A DNA stretch of 23,502 bases, from IMG/VR virus record IMGVR_UViG_3300030329_005055, positions 1-23,502 of that record; one strand, 5' to 3'. The DNA is from a virus. Of this stretch, positions 2,794-20,462 are shown piece by piece; positions within the stretch are counted from its first letter, which is position 1, and the number at the start of each line of letters is the position of its first letter. The notes beneath the pieces are model-generated. The model searched no databases. It had not been told where the DNA came from and saw only the letters and a program-made list of their open reading frames with translations. A program made the position numbers and the translations under genes.

Positions 2794-3711
2794 CTATTTT
2801 GCCCTTATAACATCGTAAAGAAGTACCTTATCTTTTCCTTTGAAAACTTTAGGTACGTACAGACGAAGCCAGTATGCCCCGATTGGTTTAGGGGGTGCGC
2901 CTCGTTCAACATGCCATCCTTCATACCCCTTCTGGAACTCTTCCTTGTAGGTAGGTATCAGGATATGTGTCTGCTCATCATGGTAAGTCCTGTTCTGTGT
3001 AGAGAGTCTGTGCCTCACTAAATCTACTCTCCAAGACTCATGAACATGACCACTCATTACAAGATTAGCGTCAGGCAGGTAGACTGCTTTTCTATTCGTT
3101 TGAATAACACCCTTAGTGACAGGTCCACCACCACCACTACCATGGCTGTAATGAGCAACTATGCTTTTTCCTAAAGTGCGACGAGTCTTGATATCTGTGA
3201 TAAGGAATCGAAGAAAGCCAGAGTATCCTGCGTTGTAGATACCACTACCTGTTCGATAGTTTAAGATACTTACTAATCTTTCAATTAGGTCGGTCTCTTG
3301 TCTTTTTAGAATTGCTGCTTCATGATTACCTCGGGCAATCATGATTATATTTTTAGCGTATGGTTCAAAAAAATCTGCAGCGGTGTTCACCAACGAGTCC
3401 AGGTAGTTACTTCCCTGATGCTCAGGTCTAAGATCGTCTTTAGAACTTCTGGGGTCATACTTCCCTTGCATAGCACAAAAGAAATCACCACAGTCTATAA
3501 TTCCAGCCCCTCTTTTTAGGGCTTCGTCCATATGCTCTTTCTGCAGATCCCAATTACTTTTTGGGTTATCCCAATGTCTGTCGGAAGTAAGTAAAAACCA
3601 TTGCTCCCAACCCTTGGGGTAGTTGGGTGCCAGCATATTTATTTTAAAAACATTCTTTTGGGTTTTAGTTACATAGTACTTTAATTCTTTTTGGTCAGGG
3701 GTTTTCGCCAT
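2794..3711 (-). CDS. Calcineurin-like metallophosphoesterase
   Basis: A 305-aa protein with the metal-binding motifs of the calcineurin-like family in order: D44-R-H46 (the D-x-H motif), G75-D76, GNHE (128-131), HYSH (187-190) and GHVH (221-224). The family uses two metal ions to cleave phosphomono- or diesters, and phage members include Mre11/SbcD-like nucleases and small phosphatases. No partner ATPase is visible, so the substrate is open. The start is placed at the ATG at 3711, which has GGAG seven bases upstream; a GTG twelve bases further upstream is in frame but has no better site. The 5' end overlaps the HExxH gene by 31 bases and the 3' end abuts the next TTG start, so these genes form one leftward operon. 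Confidence 0.88.
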   Translation of the reverse strand: MAKTPDQKELKYYVTKTQKNVFKINMLAPNYPKGWEQWFLLTSDRHWDNPKSNWDLQKEHMDEALKRGAGIIDCGDFFCAMQGKYDPRSSKDDLRPEHQGSNYLDSLVNTAADFFEPYAKNIIMIARGNHEAAILKRQETDLIERLVSILNYRTGSGIYNAGYSGFLRFLITDIKTRRTLGKSIVAHYSHGSGGGGPVTKGVIQTNRKAVYLPDANLVMSGHVHESWRVDLVRHRLSTQNRTYHDEQTHILIPTYKEEFQKGYEGWHVERGAPPKPIGAYWLRLYVPKVFKGKDKVLLYDVIRAK

Positions 3712-3953
3712 CCCAGTCTCCACAAGATATGAGAAATTTCACAGGCAGTCCGTTCGACCCATTCTTCATCTTTGTACCAGTCTGCGCTATGAAGTAATTC
3801 ATGAATCACAACCTCAAGCTCTTCCTCTCCCTCTAGATTTTCCGAGATTCGTATCTCTTTATTACGCAAAGTAGGGGCATCAACGTCGCCCCTATCCTCT
3901 TTCAGGAAAGTAAATCGTAAGTTCCAATATTTTCCTCCGATGCGAACTCTCAT
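3681..3953 (-). CDS. Small HExxH zinc metallopeptidase-like protein
   Basis: A 90-aa protein with VVIHELLHSADW, in which HELLH (residues 51-55) is the zinc-binding and catalytic motif of gluzincin/SprT/ImmA-like peptidases. A helical segment rich in E follows (DEEWVERTACEISHIL), whose E64 or E67 could be the third metal ligand. The protein is much shorter than full SprT or ImmA proteins, so it is a minimal domain or an inactive relative. The start chosen is ATG 3953, giving an MRVRIGGKYW N-terminus. An upstream in-frame TTG at 3989 would add 12 residues and has no good ribosome site. It is the first gene of the leftward cassette, and the 54 bases between it and the + gene at 4008 must hold any divergent promoters; I saw no clear ones. 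Confidence 0.68.
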   Translation of the reverse strand: MRVRIGGKYWNLRFTFLKEDRGDVDAPTLRNKEIRISENLEGEEELEVVIHELLHSADWYKDEEWVERTACEISHILWRLGWRKPLTKKN

Positions 3954-4007: not shown

Positions 4008-4304
4008 GTGGAGTTCAATGAAAGTGATAGCTTATCTCATAGGGCCATCACACGAGCCATCTATGAAAGCTTTAAAAGCAAAGGGGGGTTGGAGTTTGCG
4101 GAAGAAGCAATTGTGCATATGCAGGAAGCTTTTGCATCTATAGACCGTCATTGGTTTCCAGAAAATTACCGCACACTTTTCTACCTGGGGTATTGTTTTG
4201 GTAGAAAAGAAGAGGTGGAATCTCTGGCGCAATCTCATTTTCTCATGCGCTGGATTAACAGCGAAGATTACAACGAGGATGAACCCGACGAATATGACGT
4301 TTAG
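4008..4304 (+). CDS. Hypothetical acidic protein
   Basis: A 98-aa mainly helical protein with a strongly acidic tail (SEDYNEDEPDEYDV). I do not recognise a family. The start is GTG with AAGGAA about eight bases upstream; no other in-frame start keeps most of the protein. It lies alone on the + strand between two leftward blocks. Its stop codon shares bases with the stop of the 729-aa gene on the opposite strand, so the two genes converge with no room for a terminator between them. The acidic tail could suggest interaction with basic proteins or DNA mimicry, but nothing else supports that. Confidence 0.55.
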   Translation: MEFNESDSLSHRAITRAIYESFKSKGGLEFAEEAIVHMQEAFASIDRHWFPENYRTLFYLGYCFGRKEEVESLAQSHFLMRWINSEDYNEDEPDEYDV

Positions 4305-6490
4305 TCAGATGCTAGTGCTTCTGCAATTGTAGGTGAGCCACTTGAAGGTAGTTGCAAACCATAAGCTTTCCTGAAGAAAGTCTGAATAACACCAGCATCA
4401 TTATTGCTAACAGTCCAGGTAATCTTATCGCCTGCTAACCATTTATCCCTTCCAGAAGACAGGACTACATGTGTCCCTCCAAAATAAGTAACTGGCCCAA
4501 AAGCCATGTTATCTATTAGGACTCTTGCATCATCGGTGAGTGTTCCTGTTACTTTAACGACTAGTTTTAAGTCACTAGGAATATCCGAAGGCATGTTGAT
4601 ATAGCATGACTTCAGGGTGTAGCTATCGTAATCGATATTAGTCCCACCTAAAGCAGCTAATGCAGCAGCATTCAATTCAATTTTCTCTGAAGAAGCAGCA
4701 GTGTAGCCCGTTCCTTCTAGCTGAATTGTTAATGTTCCTGAACCTATAGCAGCCAATCCCGACTTACCAATCTGCGCTAAAATACAATAGCGACGATAGG
4801 GATCGAGTTCTGATTCAGTAAGTGCTTGTGAAACTTGGATGGTTGCTTGTGCCCCATCACCGATAAACACTAATGATTTACTACCTCGATAAACCTCGTT
4901 GCCAATCCCAGTGAAGGCATCTGGTGGGTTTACATCACAGGTATCATCAAAACTAGCAGCAGTAGAAATCGTGGTGTAGCCATTCTTCCCTGAAGTTGCC
5001 TGGGTCATAGTCACTTGACCACTACTGGCAACGACAGTAATTGTCCCATTATGACCATCGCTACTTTCTACGATCTGTTTAAAGTTTGCAGCAGCAGCAG
5101 TTGCATTTGCCCCTGCATTAAACTCTTGGCTAGAAGCACTTGCTGAATAATCATTTTTGATTTTATAAGTCTTACTTGCACCTACAGCATCAATTAATGT
5201 GATTGTCCCATTATTCACATCGTCAAATTCAGTATCACCAAACGTAAATGTTGCACTACCTGCTGCTTCCGTAGTATCCCCATCATCGATATGCGTTCCT
5301 GCTGTTCCGCTATCCACGGTCCAATTATCAGGAGCATTTGAGGTAAAATCCTCAAAGTTGGTATTACTTAGATAGGTTTCCCCCTGTAGAGGAGAGATAG
5401 TGGGACCAACCCCACTCCCAGCAGCATCCCAATGGTAATTAGGATTAAAAGAATTACCCTCTAATTGAAAAGATTCTGTTTCCCCTGCAGTTGCGCCACC
5501 TGTTTCACTATCATCTGTACAAATTAAAGTCATAGTCTCACTAGTGTTCGCTAACTGACTATTAGCTCCACTCCAGTAAGGATTAATAATACTTCCTGAG
5601 ACAGGTGAGCTAAAACCATCTAAAACTGCGCCAGTTGCAACTGTACCTAGAGATCTTCCTGATGTGGTAGCAGTCGTAGTTGCAGAACCTAAAGTAACTA
5701 CACTAGCAGTCACAGATTCATTAGCAGTCATGGACACACTGGTCTGATAGATAGTACCTGATGTGTTTGCTAATGAAATGTCTGTGCCTGCAATACCACT
5801 GGTTGAATCAGCAGTTAATGTCACTTGATTTGCTCCAGTTCCATCAGAAGCAGTGAGTCCTACTACCCCATTACCTACACTAGAGCCATATTTAATATCG
5901 GGGTTTCCTGAGATGGCATCTGCATCAGGTACTTCACCATTAATTGCTTTAATTATGAAATCAGCAGTCTGAGCATCAGTACCTGCTTGATTTATAAAAA
6001 TTTCATGAGTACCAGGAACTAATAGAATTCCTGCTCCATCCTTCATGGTTAAAGTTATTGCAGTCCCTAAACCACTAGCTTCAGACGGAACAGTAATTGT
6101 GAAAGCATGTCCAGCAGCATTGCTACTAGTGTCCAGGATATCTGTCCCTTTAGCAGTAACCATATCCTGGTAGATCTTTAGGAAAACATTATTAAATCCT
6201 GTGTTTCCTCCCAGGGTAAACTTATCCAAAACATGTGTTTTGTCAGTAAGAAGCTCCGTTACCCTGGCAATCATGTCAGCAATCCAGGATTGTACCGAGG
6301 ATTTATAAGATTCAAAAATATCTTTAATCCCTTCGTAGCTATCAATCTGATCATTAGTCTTTAATTGCTCCTCAATTTCATCTCTCCCTGCTTCCAGAGG
6401 AGCATAGTAGGCAGCAAATTCATTAACTCGCTCAATGAACTCACCAATGTTTTCAAAAAGATCATCATAATTGGAAGAAGTAAGTCCCAT
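4301..6490 (-). CDS. Large beta-rich virion protein with carbohydrate-binding-like module
   Basis: A 729-aa protein. Residues 1-115 are helical (for example LFENIGEFIERVNEFAAYY) and look like an assembly or attachment domain. Residues about 127-245 are a T/S/G/A-rich beta module (FTITVPSEASGLGTAITLT). Residues 373-410 (YLSNTNFEDF, APDNWTVDSG) and 532-665 (YRGSKSLVFIGD, PYRRYCILAQIGKSG) resemble the two halves of a CBM4/9-type jelly roll. Between them, about 413-515, sits a second beta module (NGTITLIDAVGASKTYKI) like ones often found in phage structural proteins. It probably forms fibres, capsid decorations or receptor-binding surfaces; this is inference. The ATG has AAGGG eight bases upstream. 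It is the only large structural gene on the reverse strand, which suggests separate regulation or later acquisition. Confidence 0.72.
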   Translation of the reverse strand: MGLTSSNYDDLFENIGEFIERVNEFAAYYAPLEAGRDEIEEQLKTNDQIDSYEGIKDIFESYKSSVQSWIADMIARVTELLTDKTHVLDKFTLGGNTGFNNVFLKIYQDMVTAKGTDILDTSSNAAGHAFTITVPSEASGLGTAITLTMKDGAGILLVPGTHEIFINQAGTDAQTADFIIKAINGEVPDADAISGNPDIKYGSSVGNGVVGLTASDGTGANQVTLTADSTSGIAGTDISLANTSGTIYQTSVSMTANESVTASVVTLGSATTTATTSGRSLGTVATGAVLDGFSSPVSGSIINPYWSGANSQLANTSETMTLICTDDSETGGATAGETESFQLEGNSFNPNYHWDAAGSGVGPTISPLQGETYLSNTNFEDFTSNAPDNWTVDSGTAGTHIDDGDTTEAAGSATFTFGDTEFDDVNNGTITLIDAVGASKTYKIKNDYSASASSQEFNAGANATAAAANFKQIVESSDGHNGTITVVASSGQVTMTQATSGKNGYTTISTAASFDDTCDVNPPDAFTGIGNEVYRGSKSLVFIGDGAQATIQVSQALTESELDPYRRYCILAQIGKSGLAAIGSGTLTIQLEGTGYTAASSEKIELNAAALAALGGTNIDYDSYTLKSCYINMPSDIPSDLKLVVKVTGTLTDDARVLIDNMAFGPVTYFGGTHVVLSSGRDKWLAGDKITWTVSNNDAGVIQTFFRKAYGLQLPSSGSPTIAEALASD

Positions 6491-9010: not shown

Positions 9011-10165
9011 ATGGCAGGCGAAATCACTTTACAACAACTGATGCAGACTCCTGTAATCACAAAGGTTGTGTCTCGCATCAAGACCCCTTTGAGCTTGTTT
9101 CAAAACTTTTTTGGAATGAGCCCTGGTGGGGCAGCATCACAGAATGTTTCCGGTCGACACCTCGGTTGGGACATCTTTGATAAAACCCGTCTGATTGCTG
9201 AAGGTCGTGCCCCTGGTACGGGACCAGCAACAGTACAACGCAAGTCCGTTGGACATGTTAGTGCTGTAGCTTATCGAGCGCATGAAAAGATTACTCTTCT
9301 TCATGAAGAGATCTTCCGCACTCGTCCTTTAGGTCAACAATTTGGTGTTGTCGATCTTAATGGTCAAAACTACATCAATAACCAAATTGGTTACTTGACT
9401 CAGCGATTCCGAAACTCTCGTGAATTCATGATCTCACGCATGTTGCGAGGTGGTTTTGGTGTTCTTCAGACTGGCGAAAGCTGGGTTCCGGTCGAAAAGG
9501 GTGCAGGTACGTTCGATGTGGATTACAACATCCCCTCAACGCACTTAAGCAAACTTGACATGGGTACGGGAAGTGACATTATTGGTACTTCCTGGGACAA
9601 CGCTGCTGCACCGATCATTGGTGATGTTCTGGCGGTTAACAAAGCGTTTGAACGTCTGCATGGTCGTCCACTTCGTCACATCTTCATCAACTCCACCATG
9701 TTTGCTAATCTTCTGGCGAACACCGAGTTGAAGAATGTTGGTGGTACTGCTTACCGAATCTTCGATTCGCTTAGTGCCCGACAGATGAAGAGTGAAGAAG
9801 GTATCCCAGATAGTGGTTTTGATGTTGTCTTCCGAGGTCTTCCATTGCAGACATTCCATGTCTACGACGGAGTCTTGAATGTCAACCAAAACACGGATAG
9901 TGACACGGTGGCTAACACCAGCTTGTTCATTCCGGATAACAATGCCATTTTCCTACCTGAACCATCCAATGACTGGGTTGGTTGGATCAACGCATCTGAA
10001 TACGTTAAAGAAAACGTCATGGATGCTGGTCGACAGGTATTTGGCTTCCACAGTTGGAGTACAAACACGATTGATCCTGCTGGCATCGAATTGAAGATGC
10101 TCGACAACGGTCTTCCGGTCTTGTACGTACCGAAGTGTGTCGCCTACGGAACGTGTGTATTTTAA
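9011..10165 (+). CDS. Major capsid protein (lambda gpE-like)
   Basis: A 384-aa protein of the HK97-fold lambda gpE type. Features include an N-terminal segment ITLQQLMQTPVITKVVSRI, a central helix region with LNGQNYINNQIGYLTQRF (the spine-like region), GRPLRHIFINSTMFANLL, and a late beta segment SLFIPDNNAIFLP followed by GWINASEYVKENVM. Length fits the family (about 340-390). A strong GGGAGAAA ribosome site lies upstream and two hairpins lie downstream, as expected of the most highly expressed virion gene. It assembles into pentamers and hexamers of the icosahedral head, with the decoration protein encoded directly upstream. Confidence 0.93.
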   Translation: MAGEITLQQLMQTPVITKVVSRIKTPLSLFQNFFGMSPGGAASQNVSGRHLGWDIFDKTRLIAEGRAPGTGPATVQRKSVGHVSAVAYRAHEKITLLHEEIFRTRPLGQQFGVVDLNGQNYINNQIGYLTQRFRNSREFMISRMLRGGFGVLQTGESWVPVEKGAGTFDVDYNIPSTHLSKLDMGTGSDIIGTSWDNAAAPIIGDVLAVNKAFERLHGRPLRHIFINSTMFANLLANTELKNVGGTAYRIFDSLSARQMKSEEGIPDSGFDVVFRGLPLQTFHVYDGVLNVNQNTDSDTVANTSLFIPDNNAIFLPEPSNDWVGWINASEYVKENVMDAGRQVFGFHSWSTNTIDPAGIELKMLDNGLPVLYVPKCVAYGTCVF

Positions 10166-14437: not shown

Positions 14438-14977
14438 ATGCCAATTAGTGTTAATGCAGTATCTGGTGCTTATTACGGAACCTACGGTGGTGAATACGTA
14501 GGCGTTACAGAAGATGGGTACGAATTGGAACAAACCACCTATGCAGAACCGATTCGAGGTGACAATCTGGGTGATGCAGTTCAAGATGAAGTGTATCGAG
14601 GATGTGATGTATTTTTGAACTTTGTATTAATTGAATACATTCAAGCAGCAGCAACTGCTGGCGGTACGGACTCTACTCCTATTTTCCACCCGCACGATGA
14701 CACTAGTGGGCAAATCGGGAAGCCTGGAGTTCTTCGAGGTTCATTCTCAGGGGCTCCTTTAGTTCTCACTGAATATAGTGGCGATACGACATCTGTACCT
14801 ACGACCATGACTTTCACCAAGTCAGTATTGGCTTCCAATTTTCCAGTACGAATGCTGTTAGCTAATCGACTCAAGAGAATCCCTATGCGTATGCAAGCAT
14901 TCCCCGTCTTGACTGAGCAGGGAACTGCAGTCAGCTATACTGCTGCTCCTGCTGGTGCTTGGTTCACTGTCACGTAA
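14438..14977 (+). CDS. Major tail (tube) protein candidate
   Basis: A 179-aa beta-rich protein: YYGTYGGEYVGVTEDGYELE, GDNLGDAVQDEVYRGCDVFL, GVLRGSFSGAPLVLTEYSGD, FTKSVLASNFPVRMLLANRL and a late YTAAP end. The pattern of G-D-x-x-G-x-x-x-D-x-V-Y-R-G resembles phage tail-tube proteins of the all-beta type. Size is right for a tube protein. The ribosome site GAGGAG is strong and a good terminator follows, as expected for an abundant virion protein. The next gene is a tape-measure candidate, which fits too. No sheath gene is present next to it. Confidence 0.68.
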   Translation: MPISVNAVSGAYYGTYGGEYVGVTEDGYELEQTTYAEPIRGDNLGDAVQDEVYRGCDVFLNFVLIEYIQAAATAGGTDSTPIFHPHDDTSGQIGKPGVLRGSFSGAPLVLTEYSGDTTSVPTTMTFTKSVLASNFPVRMLLANRLKRIPMRMQAFPVLTEQGTAVSYTAAPAGAWFTVT

Positions 14978-14999
14978 ATCCCTTTTCCTCAGTAAGAAC

Positions 15000-15043
15000 G
15001 AAAAGCCTTCTTCTTCTCTCCTGGGGAGGAGAGGGCTTTTCTT
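15000..15043 (+). terminator. Rho-independent terminator after the tail protein gene
   Basis: GAAAAGCC (15000-15007) pairs with GGCTTTTC (15034-15041) and CTCTCCT (15016-15022) with AGGAGAG (15027-15033) around GGGG. The left arm carries an eight-base bulge TTCTTCTT. The T-rich right arm and following TT form the U-tract. It would trim the tail-tube mRNA and lower expression of the tape-measure gene. Confidence 0.82.
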
Positions 15044-15054
15044 AAGGGTGTGCC

Positions 15055-16533
15055 ATGGCTAAGAACTCAATTGAAATTAAGCTGGAGTCTACCTCCTCTA
15101 AGGAGGGCAGAGATGCTCCATCTATTAAGAAAAGTGAAGAGAGTAAACCTGTCCAGGCAGTCTCTGCCAGTGAACAAGAGATTAAAAATGTAACGAAGCT
15201 TGCGGAATCAGTACTGACTACTGCAGAGAAAGAATTAAAAGATCGAGCAGAAGAGGCTCGTCAACAGCTAGAATCTCCGACTCCTGCAGCAGTTTCCCCC
15301 CAGCTTGATCCTTCTCCCAGAAGAGAACTCGAAGGTAGTTTCTGGGAAGGTTTTGGGGAAGAAGACAAAGAACGCCTCATGAGTATGGAGAGGCAGAGTC
15401 TTGGAGATGCTCCTGAATTCCCTGTGGGTCCAGAGGGCCATCAATGGAGGATGGAACAAGATCCCAAGACGGGGAGATTTACAAAACGTACTCCCTTGCT
15501 TTCTTTTCGAGGTCATGAGGGAGAGACTGAGGATCCTGAAAGATTTAGCACTTCCAATATAGTCCAGGCAATGACTGCCCTGGATCGAGGAAAGGAAGAA
15601 GACCCGCTATCAAGTGTCGCAATCGATAGTGATAAAATAGAAAGCTCCCTCAGTGATATCGACACAAATACTGATGAACTAGAGCAAATCACTACAAAGA
15701 ACCTGGAGAGTAATGCAGCACAAGCAATGGCTGCATTAGACCAGGGACGACCAAGAGGTCCAAAAGCTCTCGGTAGTGAAGATGTAATATCAAGTATTAT
15801 GGCGGGGGACTCAGGTGGTGACGTACCAGGAGGACCAAAAGCAGTCTCTGGTGATGACGAGGGAGGTGATTCTCCTACAGGCAAATTAAAAGCTATGGGC
15901 GCAGCAGTAATGCCCTTATTAGGTAAGTTAGGAAAATTTGGTGCTGTAGTAGCCACTGTGACTAAAGGTGCTGCCTTCCTTGCTGAAAGCTTCGCCAAAT
16001 TAGATAGATTCCTAACTAGAGCAGGAGAAGAGATTCAGGCATTTGCCCCTGAGATCATTGTTGAAAAAGTAAATCGTTCCATCATGCTTTTAGAAAAGCG
16101 AATGGAACGTGCTGATGAAGTTGGTGAACAATTAGCTGATTATGAGAAATCTAGAACACGTTTAATAATGGCGGTAGAGGATTTCAAAACAAAATTCATT
16201 AAGATTGTTACACCGTTCGCCACCCTAGTTATGGATGCATTAGGTGGTTTACTAAATGCTATTATTAAAATGTCAAAATGGATACGTAAATCATTATTGA
16301 CTATTGAGGAAACAATACTTGAATGGAAACGAGCATTACATCTGGCTAGTGCAGATGATAAAAAAAGAATATTAGAAATCAAAGCGGAATTAACCGCAAT
16401 CAAAAAAGGAGTCACTAAAAAATCAGATCCTGCTTGGGATCATATGGATAAAGTAATGACATTGTTAACGGGTAAAGGAACTAGTGTTCCAGGATTCACA
16501 AGAGTTCCTGGCTCAATAGCAAGTGGGATATAG
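15055..16533 (+). CDS. Tape measure protein candidate
   Basis: A 492-aa protein. The N-terminal 250 residues are polar, charged and likely disordered or coiled (KNVTKLAESVLTTAEKELKD). They contain a repeat: QAMTALDRG at 171-179 and QAMAALDQG at 223-231, 52 residues apart. Two hydrophobic segments follow at about 279-311 (MGAAVMPLLGKLGKFGAVVA) and 384-405 (IVTPFATLVMDALGGLLNAI), and the rest is helical. This architecture, right after the tail-tube gene, is typical of tape measure proteins, which set tail length and are injected with DNA. With the usual 0.15 nm per residue the tail would be about 74 nm. AAGGGTG lies before the ATG. It is short for the family, so an inner tail or scaffold protein remains possible. 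Confidence 0.6.
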   Translation: MAKNSIEIKLESTSSKEGRDAPSIKKSEESKPVQAVSASEQEIKNVTKLAESVLTTAEKELKDRAEEARQQLESPTPAAVSPQLDPSPRRELEGSFWEGFGEEDKERLMSMERQSLGDAPEFPVGPEGHQWRMEQDPKTGRFTKRTPLLSFRGHEGETEDPERFSTSNIVQAMTALDRGKEEDPLSSVAIDSDKIESSLSDIDTNTDELEQITTKNLESNAAQAMAALDQGRPRGPKALGSEDVISSIMAGDSGGDVPGGPKAVSGDDEGGDSPTGKLKAMGAAVMPLLGKLGKFGAVVATVTKGAAFLAESFAKLDRFLTRAGEEIQAFAPEIIVEKVNRSIMLLEKRMERADEVGEQLADYEKSRTRLIMAVEDFKTKFIKIVTPFATLVMDALGGLLNAIIKMSKWIRKSLLTIEETILEWKRALHLASADDKKRILEIKAELTAIKKGVTKKSDPAWDHMDKVMTLLTGKGTSVPGFTRVPGSIASGI

Positions 16534-16542
16534 AGTTGAACT

Positions 16543-18657
16543 ATGACAAGATTATTAGCTGCAGTGGGAGAGTTGTCTTACAATGGCGTAACATTCCCTG
16601 GCCCAACTAGGGCAAGCATAAATTCGACTCCAATCTACGATCAAGCAGATCGTTCTGTTAAATACGTAAAACACAAACTACGTGTCGAAACGTATTTCTG
16701 TCATGATGATACTGCTCTAGTCACAGGTGCCCCTGCAGTGGCAGGTGCAGACCCTCATGTAAATAATATCGTTGACTACATTCGTCTACGATTAACTAAG
16801 GTAGGCGCAGAATTACGTCTTCGAGAAAAAGGATTTGGGTTAGATGTACGAGTCAATGGAGTGCGTACTGCAGGTAGGGCTCCTGGCGTATACTATGACG
16901 CAGAATTTGGCCCTAAACCAAGAGTATTAGCTTGGCAACCTGTGGGCGATAATCGAACTGTAAAAGTTGTTTGGGAAGTAGAGTTCAATATTCCTGAATG
17001 TTGTGAGTACCCTACTCAAGATGTTCCTTTGGAACGAACCTATACAGTCGATTGGTCTATTGATGCTCAAGGACTTACTACACGAGTAATTGAAGGAAGA
17101 GTTGAAGCAACTATAGCGAGAATACCTTTAGCTGCTGGCTTAAGAATGAATGGCAATGCTGATGATTTTCGCCATTGGGCATTTTTCCCCATTCCGTTAG
17201 GTTTTGTACGCACTCAAAAATATAAACTTTCTGAAGATCGTAGAGTACTTTTATTTACTTTAACAGATCAAGAATTGCCCAGTGATTATGCATTCACCCC
17301 AGGAACATTGAAAATGGACGCAGAACAAACTGTTTCCAGTAGATTTCTTGATGGTAATGCTGGTGGTTTTGTGAAATGGGATTGTTCAATTCGAGCAACT
17401 ATTACACTTCCCAAAAACCAAACTATGGGAATTGGGGGACTTCCTAAAAGTCTTTATGGTCGTAAATTAGCCTGGATTGCTTTTAAAGAAATCTTAGATG
17501 AGAAGATTTGGAAAGTAGCCAAACGTAAAGGTCGTAGGGGGATCTTGAAGATACCAGGAAAAGTATCTAACTCATCAGTAGAAGACTCAGTTATGAGAAC
17601 AATCTCCAAAGGCGGGGCTACCTTCATACCTGACGAAATTTCTATGCGTGAAGATCTTTATGGTCGTGAATTCAATTTTGAGTTCAAATATACAATCTTC
17701 TGCATGCCTGATAGGGTTTTTGAGTCTACAAGAATTCTACATCAGAATGGTCCTGGGACAGGTAAAACAACAGCGGATTTCCTAGAATATTTAAAATATA
17801 CAGGAGGTCGTGCCCATACTCCGTCTACTGTAAGTAAAGATAATGTAGGAGCAACCGAGAGTAAACCTTTCGGGATGCGAGGTGAGCTAGGTGGTGTTGA
17901 TCTAGCAGGACGAGAAGCCTCATACTTTGGCTCTAATCCTACATTCAGACCTGCGGTATGGACTGAGGATATAATTTATGATTATTGCGAAAGTACAGGA
18001 AACCCTGGAATACAGATAGATGCTCCTAAAAAGGATATACCAAAAAAGGATAGGTATGATCCCAGAACTTCTGGGGTAGAGCCTGAGCCATCCAGAAGTT
18101 CTGGGGGAGATACTGCATCTAGTTATTTTCCCGAAGATGGTCCTGGAAAAGAAGAAGGCATCGGAGGAGATCAAAAGTGTTTAGCTTACGTATGTAATTT
18201 TACGCATGAAGAACTTGGTGCGACTATTACACATACCAGAGTGGGTCAAACTTCCTCCACCAATTATGCTCAAGATTATGTAGCTTCCGATCAGATTGGT
18301 GATGATTCAGGGAATCGATATCGTGCAGTTGCAGCAACTAATGAATTACATTCAGCAGATCGACCAAAAATACAGTCTTTGGGACCGCCACAACACTTAG
18401 TTCGAGTCACAGGATATGCTTATCAACTAGGGTATACTAGAACTCCTCCAGCTACTATAAAATGGGGAAAAGATTGTACTTTACATAGAATATCTAAACA
18501 ATCTACAGTATCTCAGGTTAGTAAAGGAGCATTACCTGTATATATGACTACCTGGGACATATTGTATAATGCTGATAACAGTCCGAATGGAGAGCCATTC
18601 AAAGAGGCTATAGCTGCAACCACTACTACTGGAATTTTATCTAATCAATCAACTTAA
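16543..18657 (+). CDS. Large tail structural protein (704 aa), function unassigned
   Basis: A 704-aa protein. Residues 1-200 are beta-rich (AAVGELSYNGVTFPGPTRAS, KYVKHKLRVETYFC, VKVVWEVEFNIPECCEY). A middle part to about 430 contains helices and beta hairpins. A low-complexity linker follows at about 495-545 with duplicated PKKD and (P/S)R(T/S)SG units. The end (residues 550-704) is a further beta domain starting CLAYVCNFTHEELGATITHT. I do not recognise a named family. It directly follows the tape-measure candidate, so a distal tail, hub or baseplate protein is likely. Codon use and composition resemble the neighbours. The start ATG has only a weak GAG upstream. Confidence 0.65.
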   Translation: MTRLLAAVGELSYNGVTFPGPTRASINSTPIYDQADRSVKYVKHKLRVETYFCHDDTALVTGAPAVAGADPHVNNIVDYIRLRLTKVGAELRLREKGFGLDVRVNGVRTAGRAPGVYYDAEFGPKPRVLAWQPVGDNRTVKVVWEVEFNIPECCEYPTQDVPLERTYTVDWSIDAQGLTTRVIEGRVEATIARIPLAAGLRMNGNADDFRHWAFFPIPLGFVRTQKYKLSEDRRVLLFTLTDQELPSDYAFTPGTLKMDAEQTVSSRFLDGNAGGFVKWDCSIRATITLPKNQTMGIGGLPKSLYGRKLAWIAFKEILDEKIWKVAKRKGRRGILKIPGKVSNSSVEDSVMRTISKGGATFIPDEISMREDLYGREFNFEFKYTIFCMPDRVFESTRILHQNGPGTGKTTADFLEYLKYTGGRAHTPSTVSKDNVGATESKPFGMRGELGGVDLAGREASYFGSNPTFRPAVWTEDIIYDYCESTGNPGIQIDAPKKDIPKKDRYDPRTSGVEPEPSRSSGGDTASSYFPEDGPGKEEGIGGDQKCLAYVCNFTHEELGATITHTRVGQTSSTNYAQDYVASDQIGDDSGNRYRAVAATNELHSADRPKIQSLGPPQHLVRVTGYAYQLGYTRTPPATIKWGKDCTLHRISKQSTVSQVSKGALPVYMTTWDILYNADNSPNGEPFKEAIAATTTTGILSNQST
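18061..18104. repeat. Two palindromes CCAGAA(C/G)TTCTGG inside the 704-aa gene
   Basis: CCAGAACTTCTGG lies at 18062-18074 (extended by one pair to 18061-18075) and CCAGAAGTTCTGG at 18092-18104. Each has perfect six-base arms, and the centres are 30 bases apart, about three helical turns. They encode PRTSG and SRSSG in the linker. A nearby direct repeat, AAAAAGGATA, encodes PKKD twice. Confidence 0.7.
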
Positions 18658-18667
18658 AGGAATTTAA

Positions 18668-19003
18668 ATGTCTGAGCCCAAAACATTTCAATTACCTGAT
18701 GCTACTAAAATACGCTTAGTATCTAGTGATGGAGAAGTGCTTTTTGAAGAAGAAGCAATTTACATTGATGACTTACTCTCCAAAGCACAAGAGGACGTTG
18801 ATGTGTCGGGAGATTCGGACGCAGTGAATAAGTGGCTACCCAAATTCAAGGAGCTACTATCCGCTAAGTTTGATTACGACTTAGGTGATACGGAGGCATA
18901 CTTCATTGCAAGAGAGGCGACTAGTGTGATGTGGTCTCTCAAAAAAAAATTCGACAATACACGGATGTCATTGATGTCTTCGGAATCAATGCCTTCGAGT
19001 TAG
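18668..19003 (+). CDS. Upstream frame of a tail-chaperone-like frameshift pair
   Basis: A 111-aa product. Residues 1-94 form the domain (FQLPDATKIRLVSSDGEVLF, NKWLPKFKELLSAKF, LGDTEAYFIAREATSVMW) and the last 17 (FDNTRMSLMSSESMPSS) look like non-conserved read-out after a slippery site. AAGGAA precedes the ATG. Codons 92-94 are AAA AAA AAA inside an A9 run, where the downstream frame can be entered by a -1 shift. This layout is like the lambda gpG/gpGT tail assembly chaperones, but here it lies after the tape-measure candidate and before the portal gene. The assignment to chaperones rests on the frameshift layout and size, not on sequence family. Confidence 0.6.
   Translation: MSEPKTFQLPDATKIRLVSSDGEVLFEEEAIYIDDLLSKAQEDVDVSGDSDAVNKWLPKFKELLSAKFDYDLGDTEAYFIAREATSVMWSLKKKFDNTRMSLMSSESMPSS
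18943..18991 (+). promoter_or_regulatory. -1 ribosomal frameshift signal (A AAA AAA plus hairpin)
   Basis: The heptamer A AAA AAA (18943-18949) fits frame 0 of the upstream gene. After a -1 shift reading continues with ATT CGA CAA and stays open to 19209. A stem CATTGAT (18969-18975) / ATCAATG (18985-18991) with a nine-base loop lies downstream, 19 bases from the heptamer, rather far for a classic stimulator. Polymerase slippage on A9 could give the same product. Confidence 0.6.
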
Positions 19004-19209
19004 ATCATTTATATTGCAAGTTATTATACATGGACATACCTAGAGTTCTTGCCAGGAGAGAACTGAGAGCGCGAAAATTAAAAGCACCTCTAAACTCAGA
19101 TCAAGTATTTGATTTAGTTCTTCTGTCAACTGGGGATGAGGATCAAGCAGATAAAGCTAAAACTGATTTCATCATGGAACAAATGAAGTCAGGGGAAGAA
19201 GTAAAATAA
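18949..19209 (+). CDS. Downstream frame of the frameshift pair (C-terminal part of fusion)
   Basis: These 86 codons would be translated as the C-terminal half of a 180-residue fusion after the -1 shift. The sequence is mostly helical: IRQYTDVIDVFGINAFELDH, MDIPRVLARRELRARKLK and SDQVFDLVLLSTGDEDQA. It looks like a real protein and not read-out. The frame is open from a GTG at 18931, but no ribosome site lies at proper distance before it; the only ATG (19030) would drop about a third of the domain. In lambda-like phages the T domain of gpGT binds the tube protein while G binds the tape measure. The stop TAA overlaps the portal ATG as TAATG, so portal translation may be coupled to frameshifted ribosomes. 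Confidence 0.62.
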   Translation: MRQYTDVIDVFGINAFELDHLYCKLLYMDIPRVLARRELRARKLKAPLNSDQVFDLVLLSTGDEDQADKAKTDFIMEQMKSGEEVK

Positions 19210-20462
19210 TGGACCCTAAACAATTACTAGGCCCAGCAATTACTGCAGACTATATGCCTCATGGTTATTGGGGCATGTTTATGTTTGCGCGTAATCGACC
19301 CGTCTTTAGTGGTTCGGTTATTCGAGAGATGATGTCAGATCCCCGAGTTATCTTTGGTCTTTGGCTAATCAAAGGACCAATCCTCTCCAATGCTAGATTC
19401 AAAGTCGAAACTGAAAACGAAGAAATCAAAGAGTTCCTCATCAGCAATATCACTCGCTTCTGGAGGAATTCAGCAGCACGAGCATTAAAGGCAGTTGAAT
19501 GGGGTTACTCTGCCAGTGAGGTAATGTATCGAGTTCAAGACGGTCAAGTACACTTCGATATCCTTAAAGATATTCATTCCTTGGATTGTCGAGCAGTCAC
19601 TAAGAATGGAGTCCTGGCTGGATTCACAGTTCGAGACGTACCCCACAAAGGTCGTGCTTCAGATCGACAAAAGTTATTCATAGGAATCCCCAAGGGGTTC
19701 TGGCATATTCACTGGCGAGACCGACATCCATGGTATGGTCTCTCTCGTTTATTTGGTGCGCATATTCCCTGGTGGGAAGCATGGAGTGATGGCGGGTATC
19801 GAGATATCCGAAGACTGTGGTTCCACAAGAATGCTTTTGAAGGTGGGGTCATGTACCATCCTCCAGGAATTACTCGCACCAAGGAAGGCATTCCCATCTC
19901 CAACAAGGATCTTGCCAGGGAGATGATCGAAAAGAAACGAACAGGTGGTACATTAACTCTACCCAACACTATGTCATCTGATGGTGTACGTAGTTGGGAA
20001 TACGCACCACCTGCTTCCAATTCAATTCCCCCAGGTCTTTTGGAATACGGGAACAGTCTTAAAGAAGAACTCTTCGAGGGTATGGGAATTCCCCCTGAAG
20101 TATTCGAGGGCGGTGGTGGAGGATTTGGTGCAGCCACTGGTAGACAGGTTCCCGAAGAAGCATTCTTCTCTGTCCTCCAGGAAATGGTTCAATGGTTGAT
20201 CTCTGATGCAGATCAGCAAATCTTCCGACACTTAGTTCGTATGAACTTTGGTGATGAACATGATAAGTACGAGATCATTCCTTTCGGTTTGACTGCTAAG
20301 GCAGAAGAACGAGAAGATCAAATGAAAGAAGATGTTCGTCAGGCTCAGGCAGCAGAAGCTAGTCGTCTGGCAGGAACAGGTCTACCTACACAGATGTCCA
20401 ACAGGTTTCAAGGAAATGGAAATGGCAAAGCTTCGCCCAGTTCGTTGGGGCCATCTACATGA
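19209..20462 (+). CDS. Portal protein (DUF935 / Mu gp29-like)
   Basis: A 417-aa protein with the features of DUF935-type portals: SVIREMMSDPRVIFGLWLIK (clip or wing helix), ALKAVEWGYSASEVMYRVQD, the wing segment HIHWRDRHPWYGLSRLFGAH, then PPGLLEYGNSLKEELFEGMG and IPPEVFEGGGGGFG (a crown-helix loop), followed by EMVQWLISDADQQIFRHLV. Twelve copies form the ring through which DNA enters and leaves the head, and the terminase docks on it. Length is a little short of Mu gp29. The ATG shares bases with the stop of the frameshifted frame. The gene lies about 17 kb after the terminase, beyond the tail genes, which is unusual. Its end overlaps the next gene by 41 bases. Confidence 0.83.
   Translation: MDPKQLLGPAITADYMPHGYWGMFMFARNRPVFSGSVIREMMSDPRVIFGLWLIKGPILSNARFKVETENEEIKEFLISNITRFWRNSAARALKAVEWGYSASEVMYRVQDGQVHFDILKDIHSLDCRAVTKNGVLAGFTVRDVPHKGRASDRQKLFIGIPKGFWHIHWRDRHPWYGLSRLFGAHIPWWEAWSDGGYRDIRRLWFHKNAFEGGVMYHPPGITRTKEGIPISNKDLAREMIEKKRTGGTLTLPNTMSSDGVRSWEYAPPASNSIPPGLLEYGNSLKEELFEGMGIPPEVFEGGGGGFGAATGRQVPEEAFFSVLQEMVQWLISDADQQIFRHLVRMNFGDEHDKYEIIPFGLTAKAEEREDQMKEDVRQAQAAEASRLAGTGLPTQMSNRFQGNGNGKASPSSLGPST

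Follow-up and report, generated by a model that had tools for sequence, protein, structure and literature searches.

Just upstream of the portal gene in a large lineage of uncultured tailed phages, we identified two overlapping reading frames that probably encode a short protein and its frameshifted long form, with a tail-chaperone role like that of lambda gpG/gpGT and a non-canonical place before the portal. The window, that is, the whole stretch of DNA analysed, is the 23,502-nt virus record IMGVR_UViG_3300030329_005055. Comparison with its relatives shows the two frames, the -1 direction of the second, the predicted slip site and the conservation of the protein across it. The gpG/gpGT-like role is the most likely function, judged by the anatomy of the pair and not by homology. 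Frameshifting on A-runs is itself well known; what sets this case apart is the place of the gene, after the tape measure and beside the portal.

In the mechanism that we propose, a programmed -1 frameshift on the heptamer A AAA AAA would let one start serve two proteins. The short form would comprise about 94 residues and a short tail, a minority of ribosomes would shift to produce the 180-residue long form with its 86-residue helical extension, and the rate of slipping would set the ratio between the two. The pair may then act as a tail-assembly chaperone in the manner of lambda gpG/gpGT, with the N half predicted to coat the tape-measure protein and the extension to recruit tube subunits.

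Table 1. Positions of the tail genes, the frameshift pair and its signals, and the portal gene in the window
Feature	Start	End	Strand	Remarks
Probable tail tube protein, 179 aa	14438	14977	+	Assigned by position; 7/15 members match phrog_2175 (protein with Ig domain)
Tape-measure candidate, 492 aa	15055	16533	+	Family members match phrog_58 (1e-6), phrog_1533 (3e-5) and phrog_2335, all tape measure
704-aa protein	16543	18657	+	Always between tape measure and frameshift pair; order constant in 20 loci
Shine-Dalgarno AAGGA of short/long form	18657	18661	+	6 nt 5' of ATG 18668; anti-SD energy -5.6
Short form, 111-aa frame-0 protein (N half)	18668	19003	+	First 94 residues common to the fusion
Open part of -1 frame upstream of slip site, with lone GTG 18931	18925	18948	+	Not conserved
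A9 slippery run	18941	18949	+	Read AAA AAA AAA in frame 0; heptamer A AAA AAA at 18943-18949
C-terminal extension, -1 frame	18949	19209	+	86 aa, then TAA; kept in 37 loci
7-bp stem-loop (18969-18975/18985-18991)	18969	18991	+	Probably incidental; 19 nt 3' of the A-run
Frame-0 stop of short form	19001	19003	+	54 nt from end of A-run to last stop base
AGGGGA, possible portal ribosome site	19191	19196	+	13 nt 5' of portal ATG; anti-SD energy -6.5
Portal, 417 aa, Mu type	19209	20462	+	PF06074 E = 3e-8; phrog_113 E = 4e-13

An A9 run joins two overlapping frames

The run at 18941-18949 is the sole A9 or T9 within the window and lies near the end of the 111-codon frame-0 gene (ATG 18668). A -1 shift there joins 94 residues to a further 86, yielding a 180-residue fusion with the junction peptide LKKK-IRQY and the stop codon TAA at 19207-19209, the last A of which is also the first base of the portal ATG. 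A preliminary description of this DNA, made from the sequence alone, had proposed a shared A9 tract, two overlapping frames and a 180-residue -1 fusion, situated downstream of the tape-measure candidate and ending on the portal start codon. Both the layout and the location were borne out, the latter by the PHROG tape-measure matches and the Mu-type portal (Table 1).

The slip site and both protein halves are conserved in relatives

A search with the fusion retrieved one near relative (82%), and a search with the portal retrieved contigs at 75%, in which the A9 is retained intact and the protein halves share ~44% identity over the junction. Profile searches with the portal yielded 26 and later 47 loci; with most repeats removed, 37 loci including the window were analysed, the portals of the relatives being 30-93% identical.

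Both halves were present in all 37 loci, with the second frame always at -1. At the overlap, a slippery heptamer of the form X XXY YYZ was found throughout: 32 loci carried A AAA AAN within a run of A7-A9, even in genomes at 65-67% GC, and the other five carried a different -1 heptamer, namely G GGA AAC (twice, with the frame-0 stop adjoining the heptamer), T TTT TTC, A AAT TTT or G GGT TTT. The run comprised at least eight A in 30 loci and seven in 2, with the full A9 in 22 and A8 in most of the others. Thus, the slip function seems to have been kept when the run itself was lost, and two to three changes between run and non-run sites are needed on the portal tree. The 37 loci, 450 kb in all, contained 41 runs of at least eight A on their coding strand, and 30 of these lay exactly at the junction.

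Conservation of the proteins followed the same junction. Among 17 loci, no residue of the N half was invariant apart from a lysine of the slip site, and in the overlap between the window and L010 the -1 frame was conserved at 82%, compared with 53% for the other frame. The preliminary description had held that homologues with no A-run and a separate, well-placed ribosome site for the second frame would speak against a frameshift; instead, all 37 loci had an A-run or a replacement heptamer at the junction, and a well-placed ribosome site for that frame was not conserved among them. A conserved slip site together with a conserved second frame that has no start of its own is the pattern by which a programmed -1 ribosomal frameshift would be recognized, and this is the pattern seen here.

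Two scans of GTDB genome contigs returned no relatives of the portal. Among isolate phages there was no match to the fusion, the capsid or the 704-aa protein. The large terminase (718-2235) finds its best full-length isolate match in the methanogen viruses psiM2/psiM100 (33%), and an archaeal host is therefore possible. A 187-aa ORF in L021 was considered as a natural in-frame fusion and rejected, as the N half of L021 sits in another frame.

The slip is most likely ribosomal

We consider the slip most likely ribosomal, with polymerase slippage on the A9 as a possible helper that would lead to the same product. Were RNA polymerase instead the source, it would add an extra A to part of the mRNAs, and ordinary translation of these would give the same LKKK-IRQY fusion; we consider this possible, if somewhat unlikely. 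The A8 and A9 runs are longer than the seven bases that a heptamer requires, and no conserved stem or pseudoknot was found downstream in the window's clade (z about 0), which makes polymerase slippage a possible contributor. Such slippage is known in bacteria at runs of this kind, and AAA_AAA_AAA occurs once in E. coli coding sequence, 50-fold below expectation (PMC5009743). Against this, RNA polymerase slippage is not expected on the non-run heptamers that five loci carry at the same place, and two further loci have A7 only. The non-run heptamers, with the two to three changes that they imply, point to a ribosomal mechanism for the family, although this evidence and that of the A7 loci do not speak directly for the window. 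The earlier suggestion that polymerase slippage be considered is therefore retained for a contribution in A-run members, with the ribosome favoured for the family.

The preliminary description had also drawn attention to a stem downstream of the run. It exists, 19 nt beyond the run (Table 1), but shows neither conservation nor unusual stability: the 82% identical relative (L001/L010; by-eye comparison) breaks three of the seven pairs, and the 60 nt downstream of the window A9 are not unusual in stability (z = -0.17). Stable downstream structure was present in some non-run loci (L021, z -2.9; L023, z -2.7). A downstream stimulatory structure is not essential for frameshifting on A-runs.

The pair is the only frameshift candidate found in the tail block

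In loci with enough flank, the genes run in the constant order connector, neck, probable tube, tape measure, large protein, frameshift pair and portal; the automatic gene-order search missed a few members in single loci. No frameshift pair, and indeed nothing at all, lies between tube and tape measure in the window, and the search of the tail module turned up no frameshift pair other than the A-run pair before the portal. It is as the sole frameshift candidate in the tail block that the pair most likely has a gpG/gpGT-like role. The likeness to gpG/gpGT had been proposed from the overlap in the window; the layout of a -1 fusion at a heptamer recurred in 37 of 37 loci, but the canonical position and family similarity by sequence or fold did not emerge.

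Several features of the surrounding genes were observed alongside. In L014 (3323-3553), and at the same place in L011, L015, L016 and L017, there is a clade-specific gene of 75-83 aa with the motif SW..KE...RA..AGSP between tube and tape measure. This gene was weighed as the real chaperone and rejected, since it has a single frame and is missing from the window and from most of the loci checked. At 300-660 aa across the family, the tape-measure candidate is unusually short, which suggests short tails. The 704-aa protein, which is conserved wherever a locus has sufficient flank, matched nothing in PHROG or PDB. In this lineage the portal gene comes after the tail genes (window 14438-20462, L010-L034), with TerL (718-2235) and the capsid candidate (9011-10165) far upstream. 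In L019 (7980-10601) and L021 (7983-10517), the portal frame extends to 844-873 aa, about twice the usual length, which suggests an extra C-terminal domain. Inside the plus-strand structural block, the minus strand of the window carries two long ORFs, at 4301-6490 (729 aa) and 2794-3723 (309 aa), the latter metallophosphoesterase-like in appearance.

We modelled the N half and the extension separately with AlphaFold2. Residues 1-94 were predicted as a beta hairpin and three helices (mean pLDDT 89.7), and the 92-aa -1-frame ORF at 18931-19209 as four helices (pLDDT 89.0). Searches of 21 members gave no Pfam match for the N half and no PHROG match for either half, and neither half had a match in PDB profile searches or in BFVD. 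Foldseek returned no significant match for the confident models of both halves, a comparison in which small helical proteins offer little signal and chaperone folds are poorly sampled. Alignment by hhalign to lambda G and T, HK97 gp13, P2 E and Mu gp41 gave <1% probability in every case. Comparison of the two halves with known gpG/gpGT, which the preliminary description had put forward as a check, thus produced no match by sequence, profile or fold.

The position of the pair admits another function, in which it would serve assembly of the portal or of the head-tail joint and not of the tail shaft, hence its adjacency to the portal gene. We regard this as unlikely. The pair adjoins the portal in all loci, known tail chaperones precede the tape measure, and the pair has no homology to these chaperones. 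However, short and long forms made by a low-level -1 shift are what characterizes tail chaperones, and the tail module yielded no second pair of this type. Moreover, the loci were gathered via the portal, so that their adjacency to it partly reflects how they were found, which does not apply to the conserved upstream order.

Possible coupling to portal translation

The portal start overlaps the fusion stop or lies at most 10 nt from it in 28 of the 37 loci. It is conceivable that frameshifted ribosomes, which stop at the start codon of the portal, provide or adjust its translation, and Shigella spa13/spa32 offers a precedent for such coupling (PMC5009743). We hold this to be quite improbable. 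The two codons touch in the window, but touching gene ends are common in its operon; the portals of the window and L010 have AGGGGA upstream (-6.5), and those of L019, L021, L023 and L028 are preceded by a gap of 13-43 nt and a canonical Shine-Dalgarno sequence. The proposal of the preliminary description that portal output depends on frameshifted ribosomes was accordingly not upheld, given the Shine-Dalgarno-like site of the window portal and the gaps and sites of the relatives. In L011 and L014-L017, by contrast, the portal ATG touches the fusion stop, and the portal Shine-Dalgarno sequence is poor (-0.7 to -3.2) where that of the N half is good (-5.4 to -7.7), so that coupling is plausible there. 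A wider version, in which the pair would be a head-tail assembly factor tied to the portal, fusion ribosomes would feed portal translation, and one slip rate would set both the chaperone ratio and the portal dose, appears doubtful enough that we give it little credence.

Neither a separate start nor a sequence error accounts for the second frame

It is very unlikely that the frames are two separate genes, the second starting alone at GTG 18931 or farther downstream. That GTG is present, with an SD-like AGAGG upstream (energy -7.5) at long spacing. However, separate initiation fails, since 24 of the 37 loci offer no ATG, GTG or TTG in the -1 frame before the slip site is reached. In several loci the -1 frame opens inside the run, the first start downstream of the slip site is usually at least 20 codons away, and L072 has no start codon anywhere in this frame. 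Since the conserved region of the second frame also begins directly at the slip site, GTG 18931 is not a feature of the family, for which separate genes can, on this comparison, already be taken as refuted. Although sequencing is error-prone at A-runs, a homopolymer sequencing or assembly error can be dismissed, as independent assemblies from different samples show the same run and frames and loci without an A-run have the identical -1 layout.

Discussion

A programmed -1 frameshift in these loci would extend the frameshifted tail chaperones by a protein family that lacks annotation, with an earlier description of the lineage possible outside the open-access literature. The positional rule for finding such chaperones, just before the tape measure, would fail for a whole lineage of uncultured phages, and fusions of this type get split or lost by gene callers. 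The family forms a natural test set, with the slip site as A9, A8, A7 and four other heptamers, that could separate ribosomal from polymerase slippage, and relatives without a portal ribosome site make the idea of portal coupling testable.

In common with lambda gpG/gpGT, HK97 gp13/14 and P2 E/E+E', the pair combines a short protein with a -1-extended form, carries its slip site near the end of the first frame, has products of similar sizes and lies within the tail gene block. The lambda slip site is G GGA AAG. The site here is mostly A8/A9, unlike that of gpG/gpGT, and the G GGA AAC of some relatives is close to the lambda site. There is no detectable sequence or profile similarity between the pair and the chaperones of lambda, HK97 and P2. 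The two lambda products bind tape measure and shaft protein, and it matters that they are made at a ratio of 30:1 (PMC5009743). Whereas lambda, HK97, P2 and Mu carry the chaperone gene immediately ahead of the tape measure, the pair described here comes behind the tape measure and the 704-aa protein and just upstream of the portal.

As in dnaX, IS elements (A AAA AAN) and Shigella spa13, frameshifting at an A-run would yield a C-terminally extended product. Shigella spa13 likewise overlaps the start of the next gene (PMC5009743). The proteins of these A-run slippage genes are unrelated to the pair, and here classical heptamers replace the run in some relatives. The nearest isolate relatives of the portal, of the Mu type, are those of the Bacillus phages Leo2, Eoghan and Finn, at ~25% identity. 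Leo2 keeps the usual order, with the portal after the terminase and small genes before the tape measure, unlike the lineage described here.
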